This document shows positions 21,323 to 38,309 of a DNA stretch of 64,000 nucleotides, piece by piece (within the stretch, counting starts at the first letter, position 1; every line of letters begins with the position of its first letter). A program made the position numbers and the translations under genes. The notes beneath the pieces are model-generated. The model was not told where the DNA came from and ran no database searches. It saw only the letters and a list, made by a program, of their open reading frames with translations. Source of the stretch: Sediminibacter sp. Hel_I_10 (GTDB lineage Bacteria > Bacteroidota > Bacteroidia > Flavobacteriales > Flavobacteriaceae); assembly GCF_000688335.1 (NCBI RefSeq), contig NZ_JHZX01000001.1:1054001-1118000 (forward strand), in the 5' to 3' direction.

Positions 21323-21685
21323 ATGATAACAATCTATAAAAAAGAGGCTACTGTATATATGGTAGCAGAGAATAAGCTGGATGCCAAGGATTATGAAAAC
21401 TTGATACCGGTCTTAACAGAACATATAACTGCATATCAGGAAGTTTCCTGGTACATTGAAATTAAAAATTTTGAAGGCTGGACGGCAAACGCATATTGGA
21501 AGGGAATTGAATTAAATCTTCCGAATGAAACGCATTTAAAGCGTGTTGCTTTAGTGGGTAGCGTTAAATGGCAGGAGCAATTTACCGAGGCATTGCTTCC
21601 TTTTTCAAAAGCTCATATAAAATTTTATAAGCCAGAAGAAAAAGACAATGCCAAAGAATGGATAAAAAAATATAGTAAAAAATGA
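21323..21685 (+). CDS. SpoIIAA-like (STAS/SEC14-type) small protein (copy 1)
   Basis: The 120-residue cytoplasmic protein matches the SpoIIAA-like family of small STAS/CRAL-TRIO-fold proteins. Typical segments are 'NKLDAKDYENLIPVL', 'WYIEIKNFEGWTANAYWKG', 'KRVALVGSVKWQEQF' and 'IKFYKPEEKDNAKEWI'. Its stop codon overlaps the start of the downstream P1B-ATPase by 4 bp (ATGA), so translation is coupled. A paralogue (26,268-26,624) stands in front of the second ATPase. The family binds small hydrophobic ligands or partner proteins, and no metal ligands are evident. A regulatory or accessory role for the ATPase is inferred from the double linkage. Confidence 0.78.
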   Translation: MITIYKKEATVYMVAENKLDAKDYENLIPVLTEHITAYQEVSWYIEIKNFEGWTANAYWKGIELNLPNETHLKRVALVGSVKWQEQFTEALLPFSKAHIKFYKPEEKDNAKEWIKKYSKK

Positions 21686-24189: not shown

Positions 24190-24225
24190 ATTTAATAAAA
24201 AAGGGTTGCTTTTGAAAAGGTTAAA

Positions 24226-24660
24226 ATGACCAAAACGGAAAAGATACTATCATATCACGGGATTCGACCTACTAAAATGAGGTCGAAGATATACAAGTTC
24301 CTAAAAAGGAAACAAAGTGCCGTGTCCTTTTCCGATTTGAAAAAGGCCTTTGTTCAAAAGAGCGAAACCAATAAAACAGCAAACAGAACGACCTTTTATC
24401 GCAATCTCAAGATTTTTGAGGATAAAGGGTTGATTCATCAGATTAATGATGGGGTCGGAGTGGCAAAATATGCGATTTCTGATGAAAACGCCAAAGGTAA
24501 ATACGGTACAGATTTACATATGCACTTTCATTGTACCGATTGTAGGAAAACAATCTGTTTACCAAATAAAATATCGGAAGAGAGCTTGCCAGACGATTAT
24601 GAAGTGAACGATGTGAACCTTGTATTGAAAGGAATATGTGAAAAATGCAGGAAAAAATAA
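24226..24660 (+). CDS. Fur-family metal-responsive regulator (copy 2)
   Basis: The 144-residue protein shares the plan of the Fur protein at 20.9 kb. It has 'GIRPTKMRSKIYKFLKR' and 'NRTTFYRNLKIFEDKGLIHQ' in the winged helix, then 'HMHFHCTDCRKTICL' and 'GICEKCRKK' for metal sites. It lies 36 bp after the P1B-4 ATPase gene and reads toward an APC permease, so it may belong to the first ATPase operon or open the second. Two diverged copies could sense different metals, matching the different ATPase classes (inference). Confidence 0.88.
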   Translation: MTKTEKILSYHGIRPTKMRSKIYKFLKRKQSAVSFSDLKKAFVQKSETNKTANRTTFYRNLKIFEDKGLIHQINDGVGVAKYAISDENAKGKYGTDLHMHFHCTDCRKTICLPNKISEESLPDDYEVNDVNLVLKGICEKCRKK

Positions 24661-24740
24661 CAGGTGGGAGTACTTGAACCTTGAACCTTTGCGCCCAATG
24701 GTCCAGTTCAGGTTTTTTCCACCCTCTTTAACTAAAAAAT

Positions 24741-26057
24741 ATGGCAGAACTAAAAAAATCTTTGGGTACGCTTCGACTTACCTTTTATGGCGTTGGCACG
24801 ATTGTGGGTGCAGGAATCTATACCGTGATTGGTGCAGCTGCTGGACAAGCGGGCACAGACCTTTGGTTGAGTTTTATTTTTGCAGCAATTGCGGCTAGTG
24901 TCTCTGCAATGTCCTATGCAGAGTTGTCCTCTACCTATCCCAATGCTGGTGCGGAATTTATTTTTGTACGCAAGGCATTTCCAAAAATTGATATTCCGTC
25001 TTTTCTCACGGGTTGGACGATTGCTTTTCATAGTTCGGCCACCATTGCAGCCGTGTTACTTGCCTTTTCGGGGTATTTCAATACGTTTTTTAATATGCCC
25101 TCTCTTCTAATAAGTTATGGCATTTTATTGGTGTTGTCATTAATTAGTATTACAGGCATCACAAAATCGTCGACAGCAAATATTATTATGGTCAGCATTC
25201 AACTTTTGGGATTGTTATTATTGATAGTATTTGGACTTTTGGAAACTGGTCCACCCAAAGCAGAATTTTTTAAAATTGAATCGATTTCTGGAACTTTGGC
25301 GGCCACAGCTACACTGTTCTTTATCTATACTGGTTTTGAACATATGGCAGCTTTGGGTTCGGAAGTTAAGAACCCAGGGAAAACAATTCCCCGTGCATTT
25401 TTAATGACTATGGTAATAACTACAATAATTTATTTATTTATTGCTTTTACGGTTTTGAATATTGCAGACCCTTCCGCTTTGGCAAACGTGGATTCGCCAC
25501 TTTCTCTTGCAGCTTCCAATCTCAACAATTGGTTGCCTGTGGTATTGGCTATCGCTGCACTTTTTGCTACGGCTAATGCTGCTTTTAGTGGTATCATATC
25601 CATAAGTAGGTTGCTTTTTGGAATGGCCAGTGTCGGAGAACTTCCAAAGTTTATGACCAAAACCAATGCACAGAAAGTACCGTGGGTTACTACTATTGTA
25701 GTTATGGCAGCAGTTGCGGGATTTTTATTGTTGGGCGATATTAAGATTGTAGCAGGTATGTCTTCTTTAGGCGCACTGCTTGTGTTTGTAGCCGTAAATA
25801 TTGCACTCATTGTTTTACGTTTTAAAGAACCAACACAGAACAGACCTTTCAGAGTGCCATTGTCTATTGGCAAAGTTCCAATACTGCCCATTTTGGCCAT
25901 ATTGGTTAGCCTAACTCTAATTATTCAGTATGATGGATTGGTTTACGCTGCCTTTGTAGGAGCGATAATAGTGGGAATAATACTCGATTATTTTTTGGAT
26001 AAAAGACCAAGAAAAGAGATAGATGGTAAAGAAGAAAACGAATTGTTTAACCACTAA
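24741..26057 (+). CDS. APC-family permease
   Basis: The 438-residue protein has about 12 transmembrane helices. The amino acid-polyamine-organocation signature is at the N-terminus: 'TLRLTFYGVGTIVGAGIYTVIG' with the unwound TM1 GAGIY motif, and 'SYAELSSTYPNAGAEF' in TM2. The substrate is unknown; family members move amino acids or polyamines by cation symport or exchange. It is enclosed by metal-resistance genes. Import of a metal-binding amino acid or a thiol precursor is possible but only a guess. Confidence 0.82.
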   Translation: MAELKKSLGTLRLTFYGVGTIVGAGIYTVIGAAAGQAGTDLWLSFIFAAIAASVSAMSYAELSSTYPNAGAEFIFVRKAFPKIDIPSFLTGWTIAFHSSATIAAVLLAFSGYFNTFFNMPSLLISYGILLVLSLISITGITKSSTANIIMVSIQLLGLLLLIVFGLLETGPPKAEFFKIESISGTLAATATLFFIYTGFEHMAALGSEVKNPGKTIPRAFLMTMVITTIIYLFIAFTVLNIADPSALANVDSPLSLAASNLNNWLPVVLAIAALFATANAAFSGIISISRLLFGMASVGELPKFMTKTNAQKVPWVTTIVVMAAVAGFLLLGDIKIVAGMSSLGALLVFVAVNIALIVLRFKEPTQNRPFRVPLSIGKVPILPILAILVSLTLIIQYDGLVYAAFVGAIIVGIILDYFLDKRPRKEIDGKEENELFNH

Positions 26058-26067
26058 TACATTTTTT

Positions 26068-26244
26068 ATGGACTGGACATTTGAAGAATTTAGAACAGAG
26101 CTTGACGCCCTTAATCCATCGGTAAGGAAAAAGGCAATCGAAATTGCGAAAGAATTAATCGAAAAGGAAGACTTTTCAAAAGAAAAAGCCATAAAAAAAG
26201 CAGTCGTAATGGCTGAAGAATGGTTTTACGATTTAGAAGGATGA
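26068..26244 (+). CDS. small acidic/basic helical protein, unknown function
   Basis: The frame opens at 26,023, but ATG 26068 gives the compact 58-residue protein 'MDWTFEEFRTELDALNPS...'. It looks all-helical and highly charged, with 'AKELIEKEDFSKEKAIKKAVVMAEEWF'. I do not recognise a named family, although the final part recalls short DUF2188-like proteins. It starts 10 bp after the APC permease and ends 23 bp before the second SpoIIAA-like gene, so it is part of that operon. Confidence 0.6.
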   Translation: MDWTFEEFRTELDALNPSVRKKAIEIAKELIEKEDFSKEKAIKKAVVMAEEWFYDLEG

Positions 26245-26267
26245 TTATTAATTAAAAACCAAACAAA

Positions 26268-26624
26268 ATGTTACGGATAATCGAATTAACAAATAAAAAT
26301 ACCATTGCTACAAAAGCTTCAGGCAAATTGAGAAAAGAAGATATAGAAAAAATCCATCCACTTATCCACGCTATACTGGACAAGGGAATGAAAGTCCGTT
26401 GGTATTTTGAGATGGACAACTTTACGGGTTGGGACTTGCCTGGTTTATGGGAAGACCTCAAAATGGACACGGCCCACGCCAAGGACTATGAAAAAATAGC
26501 AATGGTAGGAGATAAAAAATGGCAGGAATGGATAGCCCAATTTATGAAGCCTTTTACCAATGCAGATATCAGATATTTTGATTTGAAAGATAAGGAGACA
26601 GCGAAACAATGGATTAAAAATTAA
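26268..26624 (+). CDS. SpoIIAA-like (STAS/SEC14-type) small protein (copy 2)
   Basis: The 118-residue protein is a paralogue of the one at 21.3 kb. The shared pattern is 'VRWYFEMDNFTGWDLPGLWEDL', 'KIAMVGDKKWQEWIAQF' and 'DIRYFDLKDKETAKQWI'. It precedes the P1B-2-type ATPase by 77 bp. The pairing SpoIIAA-like then ATPase therefore occurs twice in 6 kb with two ATPases of different metal class, which argues for a functional link rather than chance (inference). The protein has no signal peptide and should be cytoplasmic. Confidence 0.78.
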   Translation: MLRIIELTNKNTIATKASGKLRKEDIEKIHPLIHAILDKGMKVRWYFEMDNFTGWDLPGLWEDLKMDTAHAKDYEKIAMVGDKKWQEWIAQFMKPFTNADIRYFDLKDKETAKQWIKN

Positions 26625-26701
26625 GGTCACTTTAATACTGGTATTAGTTGTGTAAGCACCGCGGTATCTATGTATTATATTATGCCTGAAAGTAACAACA
26701 A

Positions 26702-28681
26702 ATGAAAAAAGGAAAATCAAATAATAACAACGAGAAAATCAATAATCCAACTCAACACCCTGAAAATGGATGTTGTGATACTATGGAAATCGCGAGTGAA
26801 GAACCCACGAGCAGAATGAATCTAAGACCCTACATCCCTGCAATTTTCAGCTTCATAATGTTGATGGCGGGCATACTTTTTGATTATTTAGGGACATTTC
26901 CGCATTTTACGGGTTGGATAAGAATATTATGGTATACCGTGGCATACGTTCCCGTAGGTTTTCCTGTGATATTGGAAGGTTGGAAAAGTATTAAGAATGG
27001 CGATTTATTTACAGAATTTCTACTGATGTCCATTGCCACAATTGGTGCATTTGCCATAGGCGAATATCCCGAAGGTGTTGCTGTAATGCTGTTCTATGCG
27101 GTAGGTGAATTATTCCAAAGTGCTGCGGTTAAAAAGGCCAAGAGTAACATTAAAGCCCTTTTAGATGTGCGCCCCAACGAAGCTTTAGTATATCGAGAAA
27201 ACGATTACATTTCAGTAAATCCAGAAAAAGTAGCTATTGGCGAAAAAGTACAGGTCAGAGTTGGAGAAAAAATTCCTTTGGATGGAATTTTACTGTCAAA
27301 AAAAGGCTCGTTCAACACAGCAGCATTAACGGGCGAAAGCAAACCTGATACCATTGCTAAGGGTGAAAAAGTATTTGCGGGAAGCATCAACCTTGATGGC
27401 GTTATTGAAATCGAAACCACCAAAGAATTTAAGGATAGTTCTATTGCCCGTATCTTGGATATGGTGCAAAACGCCACTGCTCGTAAGTCAAAAACCGAAT
27501 TGTTCATTAGAAAATTTGCGAGAATCTATACGCCTATCGTTGTGTTCCTTGCAATTGCGTTGACATTTTTCCCGTATTTCTTTGTAGATGATTATGTGTT
27601 TCAGGAATGGTTATACCGAGCTTTAATTTTCTTGGTTATTTCCTGTCCGTGTGCCTTGGTAATTTCTATCCCATTGGGATATTTTGGCGGATTGGGAGCA
27701 GCTTCAAAAAATGGTATTCTATTTAAAGGCGCATCCTTTTTGGATGCAATGACCAAAGTGAATACTGTTGTAATGGATAAGACAGGAACCGTGACCAAAG
27801 GGGTTTTCAAAATCAAGGAAATTATCAATAAATCTACTTTCACGGAAACAGAATTTATGCAGTACCTGATGGCAATGGAAGAAAAATCTACCCATCCAAT
27901 AGCTAAAGCCATATTAGAATATAAAGCCGAGGGCGCGGATTTAGAGGCTACAAATGTTTCTGAAGTTGCTGGAAAGGGTTTAAAAGGTAAGGTCAACGGC
28001 AAGACTGTTTTGGTAGGAAACAAAGCCTTGATGACCTCAAATAGTATAGAAGTTCCATCTGCAACCAACGACATTGTGGAATCAATCGTAATGGTTGCCA
28101 TTGATGGAAAATTTGCAGGTTATGTAACTATTGACGATGAATTGAAGGAAGATGCCCATCAAGCCATAAAACAAATTCGGGAATCAGGAATTTCAAAAAT
28201 CATAATGCTTTCGGGCGATAAGGATTCCATAACCCAACAGGTCGCAAAAGAATTGGGTATAGATTGGGCAAAAGGCGGGTTATTGCCAGAAGATAAGCTC
28301 AACGAAGTCGAAGAGCTCAAAAAGCAACCTGATACGAAAGTAGCTTTCATAGGCGATGGTATCAATGATGCGCCTGTATTGGCAGCAAGCGACGTAGGTA
28401 TTGCGATGGGTGGTTTAGGTAGCGATGTTGCGATTGAAACTGCCGATGTCATCATCCAAAACGACCAACCGAGCAAGATTGCAAGAGCTATTAAAATTGG
28501 ACGTTCAACCCGTAGAATCGTATGGCAAAATATTGGCTTGGCATTCGGTGTGAAAGTAATTGTACTTATCCTTGGTGCAGGTGGATTGGCGACGATGTGG
28601 GAAGCTGTTTTTGCAGATGTTGGTGTGGCGTTATTGGCAATATTGAATGCAGTACGGTTGCAGAAGTTAAAATGGGAATAA
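26702..28681 (+). CDS. P1B-2-type metal-exporting ATPase (ZntA/CadA-like)
   Basis: The 659-residue protein has no HMA domain. A short N-terminal tail carries a Cys-Cys ('PENGCCDTME') that may bind metal. The core has Cys315-Pro-Cys317 in TM6, phosphorylated Asp359 in 'MDKTGTVTKG', 'MLSGDKDSITQQVA', 'IGDGINDAP', a lysine in 'AFGVKVIVLIL' and 'FADVGVALL' in the last helix. CPC with the K and DxG helices is the P1B-2 signature for Zn, Cd or Pb export. It completes the second Fur/SpoIIAA-like/ATPase module and is followed by a DUF547 lipoprotein gene. Confidence 0.91.
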   Translation: MKKGKSNNNNEKINNPTQHPENGCCDTMEIASEEPTSRMNLRPYIPAIFSFIMLMAGILFDYLGTFPHFTGWIRILWYTVAYVPVGFPVILEGWKSIKNGDLFTEFLLMSIATIGAFAIGEYPEGVAVMLFYAVGELFQSAAVKKAKSNIKALLDVRPNEALVYRENDYISVNPEKVAIGEKVQVRVGEKIPLDGILLSKKGSFNTAALTGESKPDTIAKGEKVFAGSINLDGVIEIETTKEFKDSSIARILDMVQNATARKSKTELFIRKFARIYTPIVVFLAIALTFFPYFFVDDYVFQEWLYRALIFLVISCPCALVISIPLGYFGGLGAASKNGILFKGASFLDAMTKVNTVVMDKTGTVTKGVFKIKEIINKSTFTETEFMQYLMAMEEKSTHPIAKAILEYKAEGADLEATNVSEVAGKGLKGKVNGKTVLVGNKALMTSNSIEVPSATNDIVESIVMVAIDGKFAGYVTIDDELKEDAHQAIKQIRESGISKIIMLSGDKDSITQQVAKELGIDWAKGGLLPEDKLNEVEELKKQPDTKVAFIGDGINDAPVLAASDVGIAMGGLGSDVAIETADVIIQNDQPSKIARAIKIGRSTRRIVWQNIGLAFGVKVIVLILGAGGLATMWEAVFADVGVALLAILNAVRLQKLKWE

Positions 28682-28729
28682 AAGAACTTAATACGAATTT
28701 GAAATTGGAATAATAATAAAAACAGAAAA

Positions 28730-29536
28730 ATGAAAATTATAATTAAAACTATTGTCCTGCTGTTAGTTGCGGGAAGTATTCAGAGCTGCTCACTTTTAGG
28801 TGCGGCAGGAATTACCAGTCAAGGGCAACCAACAAAGAAGGTTGAAGGCAAATTAGTCTCTACGACCGCAAACTCTTCTGTGAATGTTGACCATACGATT
28901 TGGGATAATTTGTTGAGGAAGTACGTTAACAATGAAGGTCTTGTTGATTACGAAGGTTTCAAGAAAGATTTTGAGACTTTAGAAGATTACTTGAAAATTC
29001 TTGCCACACAAGAGCCAAACGACGATTGGTCTGTGCAGGAATTGCTCGCCTACTACATCAACTCTTATAATGCTTACACAGTAAAACTAATTGTAGAAAA
29101 TTATCCCGTGAATAGTATCAAGGATATCGATGGACCCTGGACAAAACCTTACGTCCCAATTGATGGTCGGGAAATAACCTTGGCGACTATTGAGAATGGT
29201 GTGCTTCGTAAAATGAACGAGCCTCGAATCCATTTTGCTATTGCCTGCGCATCTATTTCTTGTCCACCATTATTAAACGAGGCCTACACTGCTGGTAAAA
29301 TAAATGAGCAGTTAGAGCGTGTAACAAGGGATTTCATTAATAATGAAAAATTTAATGAGATTTCAGCTACCAACCCAAAAGTATCAATGATTTTCAAATG
29401 GTATGAAAAGGACTATACCGTTAATGATAAAAAAGATGTCATTGGTTTTATCAATAAATATGCAGACACGAAGATTAACGCTAATGCTACCCTGCAATAT
29501 CAAAATTATAACTGGGACTTGAACGAGCAGAAATAA
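28730..29536 (+). CDS. DUF547 lipoprotein
   Basis: The 268-residue protein has a lipoprotein signal ('IVLLLVAGSIQSC'), so it is probably exported and lipidated. The rest matches DUF547: 'WDNLLRKYVNNEGLVDYEGF', 'LLAYYINSYNAYTVKLIVENYP', 'TLATIENGVLR' and 'RIHFAIACASISCPPL'. The conserved Cys/His residues in the last segment recall a papain-like or glutaredoxin-linked fold, but function is unknown. It is the last large gene of the first metal region, 48 bp after the ATPase, with a hairpin directly downstream. Confidence 0.8.
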   Translation: MKIIIKTIVLLLVAGSIQSCSLLGAAGITSQGQPTKKVEGKLVSTTANSSVNVDHTIWDNLLRKYVNNEGLVDYEGFKKDFETLEDYLKILATQEPNDDWSVQELLAYYINSYNAYTVKLIVENYPVNSIKDIDGPWTKPYVPIDGREITLATIENGVLRKMNEPRIHFAIACASISCPPLLNEAYTAGKINEQLERVTRDFINNEKFNEISATNPKVSMIFKWYEKDYTVNDKKDVIGFINKYADTKINANATLQYQNYNWDLNEQK

Positions 29537-29556
29537 TTTCTCTAAATCTAAAATGT

Positions 29557-29582
29557 TTTGAAAACTTGATAGGGTTTTCAAA
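29557..29582 (+). terminator. possible terminator after the DUF547 gene
   Basis: TTTGAAAAC and GTTTTCAAA form a perfect 9-bp stem with an 8-nt loop, beginning 20 bp past the stop codon. Only a short TTTGG follows, so the T-run is weak. Confidence 0.5.
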
Positions 29583-29727
29583 TTTGGTAATCTTTCTGGC
29601 TAACGAAAAGAGAATACCCATAAATGTAAAGATATGAGAATCAATTCCTATCGATATCGCTGTCGCTTTTTTGCCCATATTGAATGCGATATGATTGTAG
29701 AAAATGAAGTGAAAATCATCAAAAGTA

Positions 29728-29895
29728 ATGTATCAAAAAAGTAATTCTAAAAGAAACAAAAAAAATCGGAAATCATCTAATACCGACATCACAAAAAGAG
29801 ATAAGGTCAGGGGTATTCTTATGATAATCCTTATGATAATGGCCGCATTTCTGCTTTACTTTTTTGTGCTAAAAGGGAATATTCATAAACATTGA
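29728..29895 (+). CDS. small single-pass membrane protein
   Basis: This 55-residue frame starts at ATG 29728 and ends at TGA 29895. A very basic N-terminal half ('QKSNSKRNKKNRKSS') precedes one strong hydrophobic helix ('GILMIILMIMAAFLLYFFVL') and a short 'KGNIHKH' tail. Basic residues before the helix predict the N-terminus in the cytoplasm. No family is recognised. It sits alone between the metal region and the regulator region, with no strong promoter visible. The good membrane profile makes it more likely real than random. Confidence 0.5.
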   Translation: MYQKSNSKRNKKNRKSSNTDITKRDKVRGILMIILMIMAAFLLYFFVLKGNIHKH

Positions 29896-30038
29896 TTAAC
29901 TACAAGAATATAATGTTCCAAGTGGTTTGTGTGTAATGGAAGAAAAAATGATTAATGCTATTCTAATCAATGTTGCTTGATGAAATTTAATTACAAATAA
30001 TAACCATTATATTTATAGGGTAAAATAAGTCCTGTATT

Positions 30039-30524
30039 ATGATACATATATTAACTACTGGTGGCACCATAGAGGGTTTAGACTATGAAGATGGCAGCGG
30101 AATTACGAAATCCAATGTTACCATTAAAGACTTTCTTGAAAGTGCAAATGTTAATTTTAACTATACCATCGAGAGTGTATTTAAAAAAGATAGTCGAGCA
30201 ATAAATAAAAATGATATAAAACTTTTAGTTCGCAAGATTTCAGAATCTAAAGCGACCAAAATTTTAATAACTCACGGTACTTTCACTATGGAAGATACCG
30301 CAAATTATATAGGAAAGCTCAATTTGAACAAAACTATTGTTTTGGTTGGGTCATTCATATTGGGTTCATCTGCAGATACAGATGCACCTTTCAATTTAGG
30401 GTATGCAATTAGCTCATTACAGCTTCTAAAACCGGATGTTTATATTGCTATGAACGGACAAATTTTTCCTTGGAATAATGTTTCCAAAAATTTAGAAACC
30501 AACAAATTTGAGCGCAATGAGTAG
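30039..30524 (+). CDS. asparaginase N-domain-like protein (single domain)
   Basis: The 161-residue protein resembles only the N-terminal domain of type I/II L-asparaginases. It has 'TTGGTIEGLD' with the nucleophile threonine region and 'ITHGTFTMEDTANYI' matching the TDTMEETA-type second motif, here with T-H-G-T. Full asparaginases have about 330 residues, so the C-terminal domain is missing. Single-domain 'asparaginase domain' proteins of this size occur in Bacteroidetes, so this need not be a broken gene. It ends 8 bp before the LuxR-type regulator gene and probably shares its transcript. Enzyme activity is uncertain. Confidence 0.72.
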   Translation: MIHILTTGGTIEGLDYEDGSGITKSNVTIKDFLESANVNFNYTIESVFKKDSRAINKNDIKLLVRKISESKATKILITHGTFTMEDTANYIGKLNLNKTIVLVGSFILGSSADTDAPFNLGYAISSLQLLKPDVYIAMNGQIFPWNNVSKNLETNKFERNE

Positions 30525-30532
30525 GAATATAA

Positions 30533-31450
30533 ATGTTTGGAACTTCAATACATTGGACAACGTTCTTCTATCTAATAATAGATACGGTCATTGTATTGTT
30601 TACACTCTACTTTTCAGGAAAGAAAACGCATAGTAGCTTTAAGCGTTTTCTAATTCTCGGTTTACTATTCGTCGTCTATAATGTAACTGGCGGATTTCTT
30701 CCAACAGATAATTTTCCTGGGCCTTTTATTATTCAATACATCATAACGTATAGCGTGGCAATAACGCTATGTGTCTTCATTGTATATTATCTCTATAAGG
30801 AATATGATATTGTTGTTCTGAAGTATAATTCTTCCATTCGTAATCTTGCTATATTCACGAGCGTTAGTTATATCATTCTTTTTTTAATTCCGTATTTTGT
30901 TACAGGCTCTTTAGACTCTGCCAGATTCCTATTTACCATACCAATATCCATAGCTGCCATTATATTTCTGTTCATTTTTTACAGAAGGATTTCCAATCCA
31001 AATAATCCAAATGCCTTTATTTTGAGACGGAATAGACTTTCTATCGTAAGTGTAAGCAGTATTGCATTGTTACCTATTTGCACGGTTATTGGGGACTACC
31101 AATGGATAACATTTACCGTGATGAACTTGGCTTTTTATGCCATAACCACAATTGAAGTAGATAGGTATTTATATTTCATAGAAAATAATAACCGAATGTA
31201 CGAGGTGTTTGCTCTTAAGAAAAAACAGAAAGATGAAGCGATAGAGAGTAAAATCTTTTATGAAGATTTAACAAGACGAGAAATTGAGATAGCACTTTCC
31301 ATTTTAAGTGATTTAAGCTACCGAAATATTGCTAAAGATTTATTCATTGCTGAAAGTACAGTATCAAAACACGCATCCAATATCTTCAAAAAGACAGGCG
31401 TAAAGAACAGACGTGAATTTTTGAAGCGATTTCGTAAGAAAAAGATGTAG
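30533..31450 (+). CDS. membrane-bound LuxR-type regulator (7TM + HTH)
   Basis: The protein has 305 residues. About seven transmembrane helices fill residues 8-225 ('TFFYLIIDTVIVLFTLYF', 'IIQYIITYSVAITLCVFIVYYLY', 'IAIFTSV...ILFLIPYFV' and others). A LuxR-type helix-turn-helix follows at about 245-300 ('DLTRREIEIALSIL', 'YRNIAKDLFIAESTVSKHASNIF'). A membrane sensor with a cytoplasmic DNA-binding tail is inferred. It stands directly upstream of the CCGTA/TACGG boxes and the RteC-like gene, so it is a candidate regulator of ICE excision or replication genes. Confidence 0.8.
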   Translation: MFGTSIHWTTFFYLIIDTVIVLFTLYFSGKKTHSSFKRFLILGLLFVVYNVTGGFLPTDNFPGPFIIQYIITYSVAITLCVFIVYYLYKEYDIVVLKYNSSIRNLAIFTSVSYIILFLIPYFVTGSLDSARFLFTIPISIAAIIFLFIFYRRISNPNNPNAFILRRNRLSIVSVSSIALLPICTVIGDYQWITFTVMNLAFYAITTIEVDRYLYFIENNNRMYEVFALKKKQKDEAIESKIFYEDLTRREIEIALSILSDLSYRNIAKDLFIAESTVSKHASNIFKKTGVKNRREFLKRFRKKKM

Positions 31451-31498
31451 TCGTAATCAATCTGAAAAGCATTGAGTTTAGAGTGTTTCACAAAATGT

Positions 31499-31536
31499 CC
31501 GTAGAAAAATACGGTGTATTCCGTATTTAATTACGG
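31499..31536. promoter_or_regulatory. tandem CCGTA-N6-TACGG operator boxes
   Basis: Two 16-bp inverted repeats, CCGTAGAAAAATACGG (31,499-31,514) and CCGTATTTAATTACGG (31,521-31,536), start 22 bp apart. They lie 49 bp after the LuxR-type gene and about 190 bp before the RteC-like gene. The same half-sites recur at 32.6 and 32.75 kb. Confidence 0.65.
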
Positions 31537-31723
31537 AAAGTTTTCCTTGTATAATTACTACGTAAAGTTAACTTACAGACAGTTCCATAAATTCTACTAA
31601 TGAGCCACAAATTTTATTATTTAGAGCAGTCATTACATAAATTTTGCAGGACAATGAAAACTAAAACGCAACCTTATCAACTAAATCCCATTCCTATGGT
31701 TTCCAAACAAAAATTGCCTGCTT

Positions 31724-32560
31724 ATGAATTCTCAAATACTATCAAAAAAACTACTTCAGGATCTGGATGAAATAAAATTTCAATATGAAAATATTTTAGA
31801 ACGGGCATATCGTTCTATAAAACTGTGTCGTAAAGTTTTAAGTACTTACAAAAAAGAAATCCTCAATAATGAATTTAAAACTACCAAGGAAGAAATAGAA
31901 TTCTTCAAAGAAACCAAACAGATTCCTCTTATCAAACTCATCTACTTTTCAGAAATCCATTCTTTTGAAATTCAATTTCCTAAAGGGGATAAACATTCTC
32001 AGTTAAAATCCATCAAAAAGAAAATCAACAAGGTAAATCGCTTTTTTCTCTACAATATGGATTTTGGACGATACGTTAATTCTGGTGCTACCCATTTTGA
32101 CGAGGAATATTACACGAGGGATTCTATGGAAACATTTCATATCACTACCTCAAAATTCTATTTTCAAGACCCAGAATTTTGTACCCCAAGAGATATGCTT
32201 TTGGGCAAATACAAGGCGTATGATTTTTTAGTGACCTATTTAGATGAAAAAAAGCATAAAGTTCGTAAAGGATTAAATGGGAAATTGTCCACCATTAAAC
32301 CAATTGAAAAGATGGACTGGCCTTTTTCTAATACAGACTACGTGGAACTGGTTTACGCATTGTGTGCGAAAGGATTGGGTAAACAGGAAAATCAGGGTAT
32401 AATGCAAGTTTCAAAAAAGTTACAACAGCTTTTTAATATTGAGCCCAAGGACATCTACAAAACCTATCACGATATCAAAAACAGGAAAAACAGTAGAACG
32501 CTTTTTCTCGACGAACTCTCAACATCACTACTCATAGAAATGAATAAAAGCGAGGAATAG
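31724..32560 (+). CDS. rteC: RteC-like ICE regulator
   Basis: The 278-residue protein matches the RteC family of Bacteroidetes conjugative transposons. Typical segments are 'IKLIYFSEIHSFEIQFPKG', 'KINRFFLYNMDFGRYVNSGATHFDEEYY' (spacing approximate) and 'YTLCAKGLGKQENQGIM'-like residues, with a C-terminal helical DNA-binding part ('FNIEPKDIYKTYHDIKNRKNSRTLFLDEL'). In CTnDOT, RteC activates the excision genes. A promoter region with CCGTA/TACGG boxes precedes it, and a 39-codon frame (31,654-31,770) overlaps its start. Family assignment is good; the regulatory cascade here is inferred. Confidence 0.82.
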   Translation: MNSQILSKKLLQDLDEIKFQYENILERAYRSIKLCRKVLSTYKKEILNNEFKTTKEEIEFFKETKQIPLIKLIYFSEIHSFEIQFPKGDKHSQLKSIKKKINKVNRFFLYNMDFGRYVNSGATHFDEEYYTRDSMETFHITTSKFYFQDPEFCTPRDMLLGKYKAYDFLVTYLDEKKHKVRKGLNGKLSTIKPIEKMDWPFSNTDYVELVYALCAKGLGKQENQGIMQVSKKLQQLFNIEPKDIYKTYHDIKNRKNSRTLFLDELSTSLLIEMNKSEE

Positions 32561-32882
32561 ACCTTCAATTTTTTCATTATGTCTTTCTTTTTGAACTGTT
32601 AAAAAAAGACCGTAGTACGGTTAACCTACGGTAATTGAATTCTGCATTTGTTTTTCATAAAATTTAGTTCAATTTGATGGTGTCGATTTACAAAAACGCC
32701 TTCAAATCTTATCAAAACACACCAAATTTCAAAATGTTAAATTTTAACCGTAGTACGGTCGTACTGGGGAATAAAATCCAATAAACCTATTCAAATTTGT
32801 AGAACGAAAGTCAAATCAGGTTAAGGGCTATCAATTAAAAATTTAAACCTCTGATAGTCCTTTTCTTTAAAACCGTTCTATT
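32561..32882. promoter_or_regulatory. regulatory gap with two ACCGTA-G-TACGGT operators
   Basis: This 322-bp stretch has no gene. It holds two identical 13-bp boxes, ACCGTAGTACGGT, at 32,609-32,621 and 32,747-32,759, each a dyad with one central base and starts 138 bp apart. Extra half-sites (CCTACGGT at 32,625 and GTCGTACTG at 32,758) flank them. The region leads into the excisionase-like and initiator genes, so it probably carries their promoter. Confidence 0.65.
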
Positions 32883-33167
32883 ATGCCGACAAGTATTATT
32901 ACCACAGACGACCTTCGAGATTTCAAAATGGAATTGCTCGATGACATCAAGAAACTACTTACCAATCAGTCCAAAGGAAAACTTAAAAAATATCTCAAAT
33001 CTTCCGAGGTTATGGACTTGCTTCAGGTAAGTCCAGGCACTTTGCAAAATCTTCGTATCAATGGGACACTACCATACACTAAAGTAGGTGGCATTATCTA
33101 TTACGATACAGAGGAAATTCAAAAAGTTATGGATGCTAATCGTGTACAGCACGGTCTAAATTCATAG
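32883..33167 (+). CDS. excisionase-like HTH protein
   Basis: The 94-residue protein has a helical N-terminus followed by an HTH_17/MerR-like DNA-binding domain ('KYLKSSEVMDLLQVSPGTLQNLRINGTLPYTKVGGIIYYDTEEIQKVMD'; key residues S-S-E-V and the beta-wing G-G-I-I-Y-Y). Such proteins act as recombination directionality factors or regulators in Bacteroidetes ICEs. It is 3 bp upstream of the initiator-like gene, so the two are co-transcribed. A role in excision with the integrase is likely but not shown. Confidence 0.78.
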   Translation: MPTSIITTDDLRDFKMELLDDIKKLLTNQSKGKLKKYLKSSEVMDLLQVSPGTLQNLRINGTLPYTKVGGIIYYDTEEIQKVMDANRVQHGLNS

Positions 33168-33170
33168 GCG

Positions 33171-33890
33171 ATGAACTATATAAAGCTACTTAATGCGGCT
33201 TTTGAAAAGTTCTATTCTGATGACCGCCTCAACCCTACCCACATCAGCCTATATATGGCGCTGTTCCAAGAATGGAACAGTAGCCGCTTTGCGGATGAGT
33301 TCTACGTAAACCGTCGCGACCTAATGATGGCATCAAAAATAGGCTCGAAATCTACGTACCATCGTTGTGTAACCGAGCTTGATTCTTGGAACTACCTTTT
33401 TTACTTCCCTTCAAACAATCCCTATAAAGGCAGCAAAATCAAGATGGCCATTATCGAGACAAGTGATGAGACGGTTACGGGACAGTACCATCCCGAATTA
33501 GAACATCTTGCGGAACGGTACCATCCCATAAGAGAACCAGTTGAGGGACAGTACCGTCCCATAGGTGGACAAGCATTGGTATCTACTATAAACAATAACA
33601 AACAAGAAAACAATATAAAACAACCAAAGGGCTGGCAGGCCGTTTTTATTTTTTTTGAAGAAAAAGGTTTTGATGCTGATGAAGCAAAAAAATTCTTTGA
33701 GCATTACCAAACTCGTAACTGGCAAACAAGCGATGGAAAAGAAATTCGAGATTGGCGAGCCGTAGCCATCAATTGGATGGACAGAACTGAAATATTCGCC
33801 GAGGAAAAAAAATCAAACAAAAAACAATTGTCCCAAATCAAGGACAACTTGCGAACCACTAAAAACAAAGATTATGGACAACCCCTCTAA
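33171..33890 (+). CDS. probable replication initiator (DnaD/O-protein-like)
   Basis: The 239-residue protein has an N-terminal winged-helix part ('FYSDDRLNPTHISLYMALFQEWN', 'VNRRDLMMASKIGSKSTYHRCV'), a repetitive linker at about residues 103-155, and a C-terminal helical domain ('VFIFFEEKGFDADEAKKFFEHYQTR' and 'DWRAVAINWM') like the end of DnaD/phage initiators. The linker holds three 11-residue repeats beginning GQYHP, ERYHP, GQYRP. At DNA level these are 33-bp-spaced iterons followed by an AT-rich tract. The gene overlaps the ATPase gene by 17 bp. The order initiator with internal repeats then helicase loader copies the lambda O/P plan. Function is inferred. Confidence 0.68.
   Translation: MNYIKLLNAAFEKFYSDDRLNPTHISLYMALFQEWNSSRFADEFYVNRRDLMMASKIGSKSTYHRCVTELDSWNYLFYFPSNNPYKGSKIKMAIIETSDETVTGQYHPELEHLAERYHPIREPVEGQYRPIGGQALVSTINNNKQENNIKQPKGWQAVFIFFEEKGFDADEAKKFFEHYQTRNWQTSDGKEIRDWRAVAINWMDRTEIFAEEKKSNKKQLSQIKDNLRTTKNKDYGQPL
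33479..33625 (+). other. candidate replication origin inside the initiator gene
   Basis: Three related 16-mers, GGGACAGTACCATCCC (33,479), GGAACGGTACCATCCC (33,512) and GGGACAGTACCGTCCC (33,545), start exactly 33 bp apart. Each is close to a palindrome around GTAC. A strongly AT-rich stretch follows (33,579-33,625), as expected for an unwinding element. Origin function is inference. Confidence 0.5.
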
Positions 33891-34536
33891 AATAACCGAA
33901 GGTGGCGTGGAATATTCGCTCGGAAAATTTGATGGCAAAAGTGTCCTCTACGATTTTCCAAAAATCTTGATTTACCTGAATGCCAAAGGCAAACTTTTGT
34001 TTGGCGAAAAGTTCAGGATTTATGATGAGGACAAGGATATTCTGCTGAAGCTCTGTTCCTATTTCATCAAGGACAAGGATAACTGTGAGATTTATGGCAT
34101 TGACATTGACAAAGGCATCTTGCTTTCTGGACCAGTAGGTTGCGGAAAAACCAGTTTGATGAAATTGTTGCGCCATTTGGTGCCATTGCAACGACCTTAC
34201 GAAATGATTCCCTGCCGGAACGTAACCTTCAGTTTTAACCATCTTGGCTTTAAAACAGTTGAAGAATATGGTAACACAAAGTTTTATTGTTTTGATGATT
34301 TGGGCGTGGAACCGTCTGGCAGATTTTACGGTAAGGATCTTAACGTGATGGGCGAAGTGCTTTTATCTCGATACGAGCTGTATTTGCAAACCAAACATAA
34401 AATTAAAACACACGCCACAACTAACCTGAATGCCGAGGAACTGGAAGAACGCTATGGAAACCGAGTTCGTAGTCGAATGCGAGAATTATTTAATTTGATT
34501 GCTTTTGATACAAAGGCTGGGGATAAGCGGAAATGA
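33874..34536 (+). CDS. DnaC/IstB-like AAA ATPase, probable helicase loader
   Basis: The 220-residue AAA+ protein has Walker A 'GILLSGPVGCGKTSLMKLL' near residue 83 and Walker B 'FYCFDDLGVEPSG' near residue 138. A sensor/arginine-finger segment follows ('HATTNLNAEELEERYGNRVRSRMRELFN'), as in DnaC and IstB. It overlaps the upstream initiator-like gene by 17 bp and has no transposase partner, so a helicase-loading role in ICE replication fits better than IS21 transposition. The arsenic operon converges on it from the right, with only 24 bp between stop codons. Confidence 0.78.
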   Translation: MDNPSKITEGGVEYSLGKFDGKSVLYDFPKILIYLNAKGKLLFGEKFRIYDEDKDILLKLCSYFIKDKDNCEIYGIDIDKGILLSGPVGCGKTSLMKLLRHLVPLQRPYEMIPCRNVTFSFNHLGFKTVEEYGNTKFYCFDDLGVEPSGRFYGKDLNVMGEVLLSRYELYLQTKHKIKTHATTNLNAEELEERYGNRVRSRMRELFNLIAFDTKAGDKRK

Positions 34537-34560
34537 ACATTTACCTATCCCTTTAACAAC

Positions 34561-35607
34561 TTAAACCTCGATTTTACCATAATATTTTTTCCGCAGCCAA
34601 AAGGAAACCCGAACCAATAGTATTAACGCTGGAACTTCCACTAAAGGTCCAATAACACCAGCAAAAGCTTGTCCTGAGTTCAACCCAAAGACTGCGATGG
34701 CAACGGCAATCGCTAATTCAAAATTATTTCCTGCGGCAGTAAATGCAACTGCTGCTGTCTTGTCGTATTCTGCACCTGTTGCTTTGGTAAAGAAAAAGCC
34801 GATGATAAACATTAACGTAAAATAGATGAGTAGAGGAACTGCAATAATCACTACGTCCATCGGGATTTCCACAATCAGTTCGCCTTTTAGCGAAAACATT
34901 ATTACTATGGTAAACAAAAGTGCAATCAATGTTATGGGCGAAATTTTCGGAATAAATTTATTTGTATACCAATCTTCGCCCTTTAGTTTTACTAAAATTA
35001 GTCTGCTCAATATTCCCATCACAAAAGGAATACCTAAATAGATAGCTACACTTTCAGCGATAGTGCCAATTGAGATATCTACAATAGCACCTTCAAAACC
35101 AAAATAAGGCGGAAGTACAGTTATGAAAATCCAAGCATAAAAACTATATGCAAAGACTTGAAAAATACTGTTCAAAGCGACCAGACCAGCACCATACTCG
35201 CTACTTCCTTCAGCAAGGTCGTTCCAAACCAAGACCATTGCGATACAACGTGCCAAGCCTATTAGAATAAGTCCAACCATATATTCGGGATAATCACGTA
35301 AAAACGTGATTGCCAAAACGAACATCAAGACAGGACCAATTACCCAATTCAAAATGAGTGAAATAGAAAGGATTTTTGTGTTTTTGAAAACTTTAGGTAA
35401 GAGCGCATAATTGACTTTAGCCAAAGGTGGGTACATCATCAATATTAAGCCTATCGCAATAGGTATATTGGTTGTTCCGCTGCTGAATGAGTTTATGATA
35501 TTTGGAAATGTTGGAATGAAATACCCAATCCCGACGCCTATTGCCATTGCGACAAAAATCCATAGTGTAAGGTTTCTATCGAGGAAGCCTAATTTTTTCT
35601 TAGCCAT
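34561..35607 (-). CDS. acr3: ACR3-family arsenite efflux permease
   Basis: The 348-residue protein has about ten transmembrane helices and the ACR3 signatures: the conserved cysteine in '[17 protein letters not shown]' and the conserved glutamate in '[18 protein letters not shown]'. ACR3 pumps export As(OH)3 from the cytoplasm using the proton gradient. It is the last gene of a six-gene minus-strand operon that starts with arsR, and it lies 5 bp after gcvH. No truncation is seen. Confidence 0.94.
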
Positions 35608-35612
35608 ATTAT

Positions 35613-35993
35613 TTATTGATTGATTGATTTTTGATACGCCTCGTGGCTCAAAAGATTTGAAAGCTCGTTCAGGTTACTAACTTTTATCTTGACCATCCAA
35701 CCTTCGCTAAAAGGTTTTTCGTTTACAAGTGTTGGGTTTTCAAGTAGATTCTCGTTAACAGCGGTAACTTCGCCCGAAAGGGGCATAAATAAATCACTTA
35801 CTGTTTTAAGAGCCTCGACAGAACCAAAAACTTCGTCCTGTTCAAACTCATCGCCCACGCTTGGTAAGTCAACATAGACTATCTCGCCAAGTTCACTTTG
35901 GGCAAAAGTGGTAATACCAATAGTTCCGGTATCGTTTTCAATTTTTATCCAAGTGTGCTCTTTGGAAAAATATAGATTGTTAGATGCTTCCAT
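35613..35993 (-). CDS. gcvH: GcvH-like lipoyl protein in the arsenic operon
   Basis: The 126-residue protein is a full-length glycine-cleavage H protein. The lipoyl-acceptor lysine is Lys63 in '[15 protein letters not shown]', and the rest of the lipoyl domain is intact ('[18 protein letters not shown]', '[16 protein letters not shown]', '[15 protein letters not shown]'). GcvH normally shuttles aminomethyl groups between GcvP and GcvT, but no other gcv gene is nearby. Here it lies 5 bp upstream of acr3 and 12 bp after the phosphoesterase gene. Arsenite binds dithiols such as dihydrolipoyl groups, so a role as arsenite carrier, sensor or target replacement is conceivable (inference). Confidence 0.88.
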
Positions 35994-36005
35994 AGTTGCA
36001 AGGTT

Positions 36006-36779
36006 TTAATATCCGTTTCTCAAATTATCAGCATAGCTGTTGGGTAAAATACTGTCTTCGACCGCCTTTGCCGCTTTCTCGATATCGTATTCAAACTTTA
36101 CGAATTCTACAGAAATACTGTCCTTATCTTTAACCGAAGCATTCTCGTTGATATCTAAAATGATGTAACTACCTCGATTATCGCCGTCTTTGGGTTTACC
36201 AATTGACCCGATATTTATAGCGTGCCGAAAATGTGACGCACTTTCATCTGCCGAATCGAAAGTTCTGTGATAAGGTTTATGGGTATGACCAAAGCACATC
36301 ACATCGGCATCGGCTTGTTCCATAATACGAATCATACTTTTCTCTGCTCTGTCTTCAAAAAGATATTCATTTATTTTTCGTGGACTTCCGTGTACCAATA
36401 GCACATTCAATTGGTCTTCATTCAATTGAAATTCTAATTTCATATGGGCTGGAAGTGTTCTCAGATACGCTCTGTTTTTATCATTAACCAATTCGTTGGT
36501 CAAAGAAATTGAAACCTTCCCATTTGCTTTTTCTTCATCAGTTTTATAGGCGCAACCGCAATCATTGCTTTTCCTGCCAATACCAAAGTCATAATTGCCG
36601 GCGATGGTCGGTATTTTTCGCTTTCTGATTTCCTCGATGACCTCATTGGGCCAAACGTTATAGCCCACCAAATCGCCAAGGCAGTAGATGGCATCGTATT
36701 CCCTGTTTTCCAAATCTTTAAAAAATGCTTGTAATGCAGGTAAGTTTGAATGAATATCGCTGAATAGTATTATTTTCAT
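36006..36779 (-). CDS. calcineurin-like metallophosphoesterase
   Basis: The 257-residue protein has all motifs of the YfcE-type phosphoesterase fold: Asp7-x-His9 in 'FSDIHSNLPAL', 'CLGDLVGYN', 'TIAGNYDF', 'LVHGSPRKINEYLF' and 'CFGHTHKPYH'. An insert with 'SNDCGCAYKTDEEKA' carries a C-G-C. It should hydrolyse phosphodiesters with two metal ions in the cytoplasm; the substrate is unknown. Its place inside the ars operon suggests a function in arsenic metabolism, such as cleaving an arsenylated or organophosphate compound, which is speculative. Confidence 0.84.
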   Translation of the reverse strand: MKIILFSDIHSNLPALQAFFKDLENREYDAIYCLGDLVGYNVWPNEVIEEIRKRKIPTIAGNYDFGIGRKSNDCGCAYKTDEEKANGKVSISLTNELVNDKNRAYLRTLPAHMKLEFQLNEDQLNVLLVHGSPRKINEYLFEDRAEKSMIRIMEQADADVMCFGHTHKPYHRTFDSADESASHFRHAINIGSIGKPKDGDNRGSYIILDINENASVKDKDSISVEFVKFEYDIEKAAKAVEDSILPNSYADNLRNGY

Positions 36780-36798
36780 TATGAAGTTTTTTTTAGGT

Positions 36799-37266
36799 TT
36801 AGCAACAACCGCTATCTGGTGCGCAAGAAGTTGCGGTTTGAATGTCGGATAATTTCATTTTAGGTTTTTCTGTAGGAATACCACATTGGTCTTTAGCCAA
36901 ACAGTCGGTTTGTTTGGATGTCAGCAAGAAATTGTTTCCGTCGAAATCGAGTCCGAATTTTCCAATCGTATCTGCTTGGTATTCTACTTCAACTTCCAAA
37001 TCGCCTATTTCCAATATTTTTTCGGAAAGCTCGATGATGTTCAACAGTTTGCTGGGGTGCAACCTGTGGTCATAATCGTTTGCGTTCCACAGTTGAAAAT
37101 TGGCAACTTCCTCTTTTCTTTCGGTTCCGCCACAATCAATGAAATGTTTTGTGATTTTGCCCACTTCGGTAACGTGGAAGTGATTTGGAACCAAATCGCC
37201 ATTTGGTAGTTGGAAGGCGATTTTATCCAACTGCGTAAGTTGGGCTTTGATTTGTGATAATTTCAT
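36799..37266 (-). CDS. DUF6428-like protein of arsenic operons
   Basis: The 155-residue protein has no signal peptide. Histidine- and aspartate-bearing segments ('NHFHVTEVGKITKHFIDCGGT', 'WNANDYDHRLHPSKLLNII') resemble DUF6428, a family I know beside arsR in Bacteroidetes (name from memory). It ends in 'SCAPDSGCC', which adds three cysteines fit for As(III) binding. A cytoplasmic arsenite-binding or transfer role is possible. It lies 10 bp downstream of the secreted-protein gene and 19 bp upstream of the phosphoesterase gene. Confidence 0.7.
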   Translation of the reverse strand: MKLSQIKAQLTQLDKIAFQLPNGDLVPNHFHVTEVGKITKHFIDCGGTERKEEVANFQLWNANDYDHRLHPSKLLNIIELSEKILEIGDLEVEVEYQADTIGKFGLDFDGNNFLLTSKQTDCLAKDQCGIPTEKPKMKLSDIQTATSCAPDSGCC

Positions 37267-37276
37267 AAAATTATTT

Positions 37277-37912
37277 TTATTGTTTTGTTTGCAATAGATT
37301 GTTTATTCGTGTTGCCATATAGAGCATTTCTTTTGGAATGCTTGATGTATCTGAAAAAAGTAATTCAATGTTGTTTTTAGTCTCGTCGTCAGATAAGTTT
37401 TCCAGATATATATTGAAAGTAGTCTCGCTGTTTAAATTTAAAGATTGAAAAGATTTTGGATATACGGTCCAATTGCCAGAACCGAAGTCAATCTTATAGG
37501 ATATTGGGTTTTCCCCGCGCGTATTTCTTATGCTGAAACCATATTCCTTTAATTCCGCAAGTTTTGGCATAGGTTCAATCTTGGGCGAGAAGCCTGCGGA
37601 TTGGATATTGAATATATCGCTATGTCCATAATATAGCATACCTGTTTGAAGCCATATCATTGCAAGTTGGCTAATTTCTTGATTGGTCTTATCAAGAAAT
37701 AGCACGTCAAGCTTGGTGCTGTCTTCTAACTTTTTGAATACTAAAAAACTAACCTGGTCAAGATACTTTAGCCTGTCCATTGGGATTTCAGGGAATGTAT
37801 CGCCAATTTCAACCACGGATTTCTGAATTTTGTTCTTGAGGGTCTGTGCTTGAATTACTTGCTGAAAGCAAAGTAAAAACACCACGATGGGAATTATTGT
37901 TTTTGTTTTCAT
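37277..37912 (-). CDS. exported protein of unknown function in the ars operon
   Basis: The 211-residue protein has a signal peptide ('IIPIVVFLLCFQQVIQAQ') and no lipobox, so it should be periplasmic. No domain is recognised. The mature part has 'TFNIYLENLSDDETKNNIELLF' and no cysteine. It follows arsR after 64 bp that contain a second copy of the putative ArsR operator. It could therefore begin its own arsenite-induced transcript with the downstream genes. Confidence 0.65.
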   Translation of the reverse strand: MKTKTIIPIVVFLLCFQQVIQAQTLKNKIQKSVVEIGDTFPEIPMDRLKYLDQVSFLVFKKLEDSTKLDVLFLDKTNQEISQLAMIWLQTGMLYYGHSDIFNIQSAGFSPKIEPMPKLAELKEYGFSIRNTRGENPISYKIDFGSGNWTVYPKSFQSLNLNSETTFNIYLENLSDDETKNNIELLFSDTSSIPKEMLYMATRINNLLQTKQ

Positions 37913-37942
37913 AATTAAAGGTTTAAAAAACTATATAAGTTT

Positions 37943-37968
37943 ATCGCAATAAAGCGATTAATTAAATT
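37943..37968. promoter_or_regulatory. putative ArsR operator, copy 2 (before the exported-protein gene)
   Basis: ATCGCAATAAAGCGATTAAT contains the dyad ATCGC-N6-GCGAT. It matches the sequence upstream of arsR at most positions, including GCAATA, CGATTAAT and the AT-rich tail. Confidence 0.6.
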
Positions 37969-37976
37969 AAATTTTT

Positions 37977-38309
37977 TTAACAACATTCATCTTTTGGCAA
38001 CAAATCTTGCCCCAGAAATTCGGTCATAATATCTTTCATTTCCGTCCAGTTTTCGGTGTCTATGCAATAGCAAACACTTGTTCCTTCAACTGTTCCTTTT
38101 ATCAAGCCTAAATATTTTAGTTCCTTCAGGTGTTGTGAAATTGTCGGTTGTGCTAAACCGATTTCCTTTACTAAATCGCCACAAAAACAAGCATCAATTT
38201 TGAAAAGATGTTGCAGGATTGCCACTCTGGCGGGATGTCCAAATGCTTTTGCAAAAACCGAAATTTGGTTTTGCTGGTCTGTGAACATTTCCGTTTTGGC
38301 TAATCCCAT
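37977..38309 (-). CDS. arsR: ArsR-family arsenic-responsive repressor
   Basis: The 110-residue winged-helix repressor has 'FAKAFGHPARVAILQHL', then Cys41-Phe-Cys43 in 'DACFCGDLV' at the alpha3 position where ArsR proteins bind As(III). The recognition helix segment is 'LAQPTISQHLKELKYLGLI', and the C-terminus ends in Cys-Cys ('KDECC'). It should repress the operon until arsenite binds. A sequence upstream (38,328-38,354) and one downstream (37,943-37,968) look like its operators. It is the first gene of the minus-strand ars operon. Confidence 0.92.
   Translation of the reverse strand: MGLAKTEMFTDQQNQISVFAKAFGHPARVAILQHLFKIDACFCGDLVKEIGLAQPTISQHLKELKYLGLIKGTVEGTSVCYCIDTENWTEMKDIMTEFLGQDLLPKDECC

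Follow-up and report, generated by a model that had tools for sequence, protein, structure and literature searches.

We report a putative theta-type replication origin, made up of iterons and an AT-rich unwinding element, that probably lies within the gene encoding its own initiator, in an integrative and conjugative element (ICE) of the phylum Bacteroidota. The stretch of DNA analyzed (hereafter the window) comprises 64,000 nucleotides of Sediminibacter sp. Hel_I_10 (contig NZ_JHZX01000001.1, positions 1,054,001 to 1,118,000). An initiator-like gene encoding 239 amino acids, recognized from its open reading frame (ORF), AlphaFold model and fold matches, occupies 33171-33890 on the plus strand. 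The assignment draws on DNA-level constraint, the periodicity and layout of the repeats, the conserved gene order, and the predicted domain make-up. It also draws on the replication-profile matches of a relative in Polaribacter phage Freya, structural matches to RepA-type initiators, and at least 10 changes between three and four repeat units among relatives. If the region is such an origin, autonomous replication of the excised ICE would follow, as an earlier note on this DNA had suggested.

In the mechanism that we propose, the N-terminal winged helix of the protein would bind the GRACRGYACCRTCCC repeats, and probably also the flanking ACAAGYRNTG motifs. The bound initiator would open the adjacent AT tract, the DnaC-like ATPase encoded by the next gene would load the host DnaB at the opened tract, and the excised circle would thereby be able to copy itself. 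We infer these steps (binding, melting, helicase loading, and replication).

Three 16-mers, GGGACAGTACCATCCC (33479-33494), GGAACGGTACCATCCC (33512-33527), and GGGACAGTACCGTCCC (33545-33560), were read directly on the plus strand, and their positions confirm the exact 33-bp period described in the earlier note. They were also recovered by a mismatch search and by a repeat finder, which extended the three copies to 21 nucleotides each, with spacings of 33 and 33. The pattern GGGACRGTACCRTCCC, with up to 3 mismatches, gave 8 matches on both strands of the window against 0.26 expected, and 0 of 100 shuffles reached 8, which rules out a chance origin of the repeats. Six of the 8 matches are the three iteron sites counted on both strands; the remaining two, at 33063 and 43182, have 3 mismatches each. 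The units had been called nearly palindromic, and their consensus GGGACGGTACCGTCCC is in fact a perfect palindrome, but the left arm and the palindrome are degenerate in some units of the relatives, in which the last unit is often GACTCGCACCGTCCC. The best-conserved part of the unit among relatives is the right half, ACCRTCCC.

The AT-rich stretch noted after the repeats is a candidate DNA unwinding element (33579-33625, plus strand). Its A+T content of 76.6% is equalled or exceeded by 4.9% of 47-bp segments in the 64 kb, and 2.2% of such segments have a lower nearest-neighbour stability. Over the initiator and DnaC-like genes, 0.15% of segments are less stable by nearest-neighbour energy; the tract is thus close to the stability minimum of the two genes. 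A TATAAACAATA-like core is also present in many distant relatives. On the left of the iterons, GAGACAAGTGATGA (33456-33469, plus strand; consensus of the relatives, GGGACAAGTGATGA) fits the ACAAGYRNTG motif of the relatives. On the right, GGACAAGCATTGG (33567-33579, plus strand) is found in distant relatives too, just 5' of their AT tract. Synonymous conservation is raised over 33459-33695 on the same strand (about residues 97-175), the candidate extent of the origin.

The AlphaFold model of the protein has a winged helix (residues 1-92), a disordered linker (98-148), and then a C-terminal helical domain. The constrained DNA repeats correspond to residues 104-136, inside the predicted disordered linker, and the segment with the repeats has a predicted local distance difference test (pLDDT) score under 50. 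Pfam and NCBIfam named no family for the protein, which gave only weak Pfam matches below the cut-off; the initiator family is one without a Pfam match. At E ≤ 1, the window protein had no Pfam match to PF06970 (RepA_N), and 0 of 31 aligned members matched it at E ≤ 0.01. In PHROG, the only match at E ≤ 0.001 was phrog_28809 (unknown function), with no O-like profile. A sequence search against solved structures was negative with the single protein, and with the alignment it returned one match with an E value of 0.6, which we took as spurious. In the fold comparison, the best-aligned solved structures include the RepA-type plasmid initiators 4pt7, 4pta, 5kbj (a Rep-DNA complex), and 4pql, the last of which we take to belong to the same group as the Staphylococcus aureus RepA structures 4pt7 and 4pta.

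To compare the repeats at the levels of codon and amino acid, we used 88 genes, namely the best 80 of 209 genomic loci, 5 further close relatives, the two other copies from the same genome, and the window gene; 77 of the 88 are unique. Loci and their genes are designated by L numbers here and below. Repeat DNA was extracted by pattern for 78 of the 80 loci, and the two missed, L061 and L080, were viewed as protein. The analysis of units covered 75 of the 77 unique genes and gave 149 unique 33-bp units. L082 (read on the wrong strand) and L083 (in which the anchor was missing), the two other copies of the same genome, contributed none of these, and L075 (249 amino acids) was counted with 3 units instead of 4. 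The synonymous-identity profile was based on 76 genes, all the unique ones except L082.

In these units, the base is fixed where the amino acid changes. The second codon of the unit was CAC in 68/68 His, TAC in 76/77 Tyr, and AAC in 2/2 Asn codons. The third was CAT in 63/63 His, TAT in 5/5 Tyr, CGT in 44/45 Arg, AAT in 22/22 Asn, and AGT in 10/10 Ser codons, and the fourth was CCC in 146/146 Pro codons. Outside the units of the same genes, the corresponding values were 50/225 for His CAC, 250/812 for Tyr TAC, and 111/504 for Pro CCC.

In the 76-gene profile, synonymous identity was 0.698 in one half of the winged-helix part and 0.532 in the other, 0.772 immediately 5' of the repeats, 0.904 over the repeats, and 0.933 over the AT tract. 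It was 0.742 over residues 152-215, remaining high to about residue 170 and dropping to about 0.56 near residues 180-200, and was high also at the extreme 5' end of the gene. The lowest amino-acid identity, 0.724, was that of the repeats. Columns with variable amino acids and a nearly fixed third base numbered 1 of 14 in residues 1-92 and 4 of 5 in 93-103. The corresponding values were 9/24 for the repeats, 3/6 for the AT tract, 3/7 for residues 152-175, 2/17 for residues 176-214, and 2/3 for the tail. Matches at lag 33 numbered 1314 against 334 ± 25 in synonymous shuffles. We attach no p-value to these counts because related genes are not independent. The motif ACAAGYRNTG occurred 149 times against 14.6 in such shuffles in the close set, 22 against 4.8 in the second subfamily described below, and 11 against 0.5 in the divergent genes. 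A second block of synonymous conservation (0.93), at residues 215-239 (33813-33890), overlaps the start of the loader gene. The C-terminal tail encoded there, NKDYGQPL in the window and KNYAEPL-like elsewhere, is largely kept in the longer relatives.

The repeats are thus very likely constrained as DNA sites, with amino acids varying over fixed bases. The earlier note had taken the encoded peptide repeat for a by-product of the DNA sites, and both the codon-independent base conservation and the peak of synonymous identity bear this out. It had also named homologues with the same peptide repeat in randomised codons as a finding that would refute its reading; we found the opposite, fixed codons at changing residues. 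The alternative is that an 11-residue interaction motif, GQYxP, was selected as a peptide and that the regularity of the DNA is secondary. The 33-bp period of the close relatives does produce a peptide repeat too, but third bases are fixed where the amino acids change, the segment is predicted to be disordered, and the arrays of some distant members, with periods of 11 or 23 bp, pass through all frames, which yields no peptide repeat. The fixed third bases and the out-of-frame repeats rule this alternative out as the main effect, and we regard it as highly improbable. The array is a clean case of a DNA code overlaid on a protein code.

The distant relatives bear on the origin of the 33-bp period. 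Homologues of the window initiator numbered 2496 proteins, and 48 of 395 Bacteroidota genomes had a match. Among 120 matches listed, the length was 250 amino acids in 69, 239 in 46, 240 in 3, and 251 in 2; the 239- and 250-residue forms differ by one 11-residue unit. Another subfamily (the second subfamily) was present in 69 of 121 genomes of one genus. For its analysis, 13 of 30 loci were left out (12 on the minus strand and L133, which was cut short), and 9 earlier genes brought the set to 26, of which 25 are unique. In these 25 genes, synonymous identity ranged from 0.43 to 0.57 over residues 1-90, from 0.65 to 1.00 where the linker and tract are well filled, and from 0.54 to 0.73 in the C-terminal part.

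The repeat of the second subfamily is ACAAGYACTGA-like and often recurs at exact 11-bp steps, so that its copies stand in differing frames. In L152, copies are at gene positions 399, 410, and 421 (frames 2, 1, and 0; p = 0.003 in the per-gene test). A similar array was seen by eye in a Marivirga plasmid gene at 301, 313, 324, 335, 346, and 357, two of the six copies being ACAACT variants; this gene was not significant out of frame, and in frame only at lag 9, in its AT tract. The 11-bp step was present in 10 of 11 genes chosen by eye, with none in L106, and lag 11 was enriched in the second subfamily (94 against 11.9 ± 5.5). L162, of a different family, carries palindromic units of 23 bp, GTCCCAAAWRTGGGAC, in frames 0, 2, 1, and 0. 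It has 12 GTCCC/GGGAC half-sites against a mean of 2.18 and a maximum of 8 in 2000 synonymous shuffles; in L161 there are 8, where the shuffles gave a mean of 1.05 and a maximum of 6. L163-L166 have 3, 0, 0, and 0 such sites; therefore, this type of site is confined to some members. In this survey, 3 of 9 loci yielded no gene to the search pattern, L161 was the same gene as L106, and L132 the same as L118. The window half-sites GGGAC and GTCCC recur in units of the L162 type in other frames, and many arrays of the relatives end, by eye, at a TATAAACAATA-like tract.

Per-gene tests on 42 distant genes (L103 was excluded as too short) were significant for out-of-frame repeats in 15. Either kind of repeat reached p under 0.05 in 29, where about 4 would be expected by chance from two tests, and 13 had no significant repeats. 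The expectation that homologues carry their own repeats at this place therefore holds for many of them, but not for all.

The lowest common multiple of 3 and 11 is 33, and the 33-bp period may be the form (3 × 11) in which an 11-bp helical period stays in the reading frame. This is in line with L117, an intermediate gene with steps of 11 and 33, and with the changes between three and four units, of which a quick tree of 76 genes gave at least 10 (recombination could raise the count). Lag 11 itself was not significant in the window gene and was not enriched in the close set (18 against 13.4 ± 6.3).

The gene order around the initiator is conserved. An HTH_17/excisionase-like gene (32883-33167, plus strand) is directly 5' of it and is part of a three-gene module. 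On the 3' side, the DnaC/IstB-like gene of the earlier note is borne out as a DnaC-like helicase-loader gene (33874-34536, plus strand), which overlaps the initiator gene by 17 nucleotides and matches PHROG 50 (DnaC-like helicase loader) at 4.1e-17. The following counts cover the fetched loci out of the 2496 homologues. All 80 of the close loci have the initiator between an HTH_17 and a DnaC-like gene. The second subfamily has the loader in 30 of 30 loci and HTH_17 in 28 of 30, and of 22 other loci whose gene is full-length or nearly so, 21 have the loader (it is missing at L110). Family f4 has the loader in 6 of 9 loci. L124 and L126-L128, weak matches with no DnaC hit, stand outside these counts, and L125, L129, and L130 had no initiator hit. 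Homologues of 83-110 amino acids with the winged helix only (L102, L104, L107-L109, L112-L116, and L123) had a loader hit beside them in 0 of 11 cases; 6 of the 11 are directly 3' of an HTH_17 gene. They may be regulators put to a new use, or relics without an origin.

The same genome has the initiator gene at two further places (G000 C1:270392-271141 and C1:2554116-2554865), each time between HTH_17 and DnaC-like genes. Three elements whose iterons are related would thus have to coexist in one genome.

The window protein has relatives in 11 of 50,697 phage records, all of Polaribacter phage Freya, and in 1 of 72,556 plasmids; the plasmid protein matches a replication-initiation profile (2.7e-6). 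The second-subfamily protein has relatives in 34 phage records, and the listed ones other than Freya match through the C-terminal part alone. The Freya protein matches profiles of a DnaD-like loader (6.1e-13), a replisome organizer (8e-12), and O-like proteins (9.5e-10), the O-like match running through its C-terminal part. It resembles the window protein in its N-terminus (48% identical), in the DnaC-like gene next to it, and in a linker with repeated AGTAGTGATA-like DNA, in which serines are AGT in 12/12 cases versus 1/18 elsewhere in the protein. It differs in having another C-terminal domain (DnaD/O-like) and in belonging to a phage, not an ICE. A 25-kb circular Marivirga record with the initiator module (L086, NZ_CP129969.1) may be a captured excised element rather than a true plasmid. 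Its integrase is short and looks truncated, its helicase genes are split, and the 10 proteins scanned, out of 39 ORFs of 80 amino acids or more, included no match to a Rep family and no replication gene besides those of the module. The record is weak evidence of an autonomous replicon because 10 of the 39 ORFs were scanned, the integrase looks truncated, and the helicase genes are split.

The sites might be functional as DNA without being an origin: they could be an operator through which the operon is autoregulated, a centromere-like partition site, or an origin of transfer (oriT) or recombination site to which this or another protein of the element binds. The protein is a predicted winged-helix DNA binder, its Freya relative is annotated as a transcriptional regulator, and homologues with the winged helix only exist without a loader gene. 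Moreover, plasmid-like replication of ICEs is credited in published accounts to relaxase and oriT (PMC4489591, PMC10865816). We nevertheless consider such functions unlikely. The repeats adjoin a conserved AT tract and lie between the DNA-binding and C-terminal domains, as is described for lambda O and pSK41 Rep (PMC7466680, PMC5703833). The longer form of the gene is nearly always next to a DnaC-like gene, unlike the winged-helix-only forms, and the phage relative matches replication profiles. It is also conceivable that the module came from a phage or plasmid and that its origin was kept by recent spread, not by use in the window ICE. The number of homologues and the three copies in this genome would fit such a relic, but third bases are still constrained over variable amino acids in 76 genes and every close copy examined has the DnaC-like gene beside it, so that we give this explanation very little credence. 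An origin inside the initiator gene thus remains our preferred explanation.

The neighbourhood is an ICE, as the earlier note had assumed: the window contains a Phage_integrase gene (11882-13084), RteC, TraG (39844), TraM (44381), DUF4138 (45343), and a coupling protein (51816-53393), that is, integrase, type IV secretion, and coupling protein. A 17-nucleotide inverted repeat, GACCGTAGTACGGTTAA (32608-32624) and TTAACCGTAGTACGGTC (32744-32760), 94% complementary and 119 nucleotides apart, lies between the RteC-like gene (31724-32560) and the HTH_17 gene. RteC controls the excision genes in CTnDOT, and by analogy the inverted repeat is a candidate operator. Between the transfer genes is Gabija anti-phage cargo (48059-51798; best PADLOC E values, 2.9e-282 for GajA and 2.5e-105 for GajB), with an AlbA_2 Schlafen-domain gene (46555-47922) beside it on the opposite strand. 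Further cargo at 21682-38309 includes two P-type ATPases (21682 and 26702), an SBF-family transporter (34561-35607), and an ArsR-type regulator (37977-38309), and is presumably a metal or metalloid block.

We tentatively extend these observations, as a possibility that we hold to be somewhat less than even, to a large class of Bacteroidota ICEs. These would be lambda-like theta replicons, each with a portable module of HTH gene, initiator with internal origin, and DnaC-like gene that is related to phage replication genes. Their iteron arrays would obey a dual code, in which a helical phase of about 11 bp is combined with the 3-bp reading frame, and would either cross all three frames or settle on 33 bp and then gain or lose whole 33-bp units. 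If so, the iteron sequence, which differs between subfamilies, would set the compatibility of ICEs sharing a cell. With a dedicated initiator that contains an origin, and with a helicase loader, plasmid-like replication of the theta type could be put to a direct test in such ICEs. The origin might also matter for the sharing of one genome by several such elements, and vectors for Flavobacteriia could be built on it. In a literature search largely outside subscription journals, we found no account of this initiator family or of an internal origin in a Bacteroidota ICE.

Among ICEs, plasmid-like replication of ICEBs1 and SXT/R391 is described as rolling circle via relaxase and oriT (PMC4489591), and copying of the Bacteroides element CTn214 is likewise ascribed to rolling circle from oriT (PMC10865816). 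The window element resembles ICEBs1 and SXT/R391 as an ICE that may copy itself after excision, but differs in the separate initiator and origin proposed here.

The RepA_N plasmids offer a parallel. pSK41 Rep is described as having a winged-helix N-terminus, four Rep boxes central in the gene, a linker dispensable as protein, and a separate C-terminal domain (PMC5703833). Iterons in this group (pSK41, pTZ2162) are described as semi-palindromic direct repeats (PMC7145576), and 4pt7 and 4pta appear as S. aureus RepA in this literature (PMC5703833, PMC7145576). The window protein has a predicted winged-helix N-terminus, candidate sites that are placed likewise in the linker between domains, and a separate C-terminal domain, but it has no PF06970 match, comes from Bacteroidota, and has its own DnaC-like loader gene.

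In lambda and Stx phages, the origin is reported in the middle of the initiator gene O, with iterons and an AT tract and with the P gene nearby in that region. Lambda has 4 iterons, whereas Stx phages have 6 and an O protein longer by 13 residues (PMC7466680). The lambda-like layout in an ICE that the earlier note had proposed is supported as a layout: in the window, an initiator-like gene contains the repeats and then the AT-rich tract, and the loader gene is downstream. The three- and four-unit forms differ by 33 bp, or 11 residues, as Stx phages and lambda differ in iterons. On the other hand, the loader of lambda is P, not DnaC-like, and its host element is a phage, not an ICE; the window protein has no O profile match, and the spacing of its iterons is 33 bp, or 11 or 23 bp among certain relatives. 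By profile, the window protein is outside both the RepA_N and the lambda O families, though it looks as if it works in a similar way.
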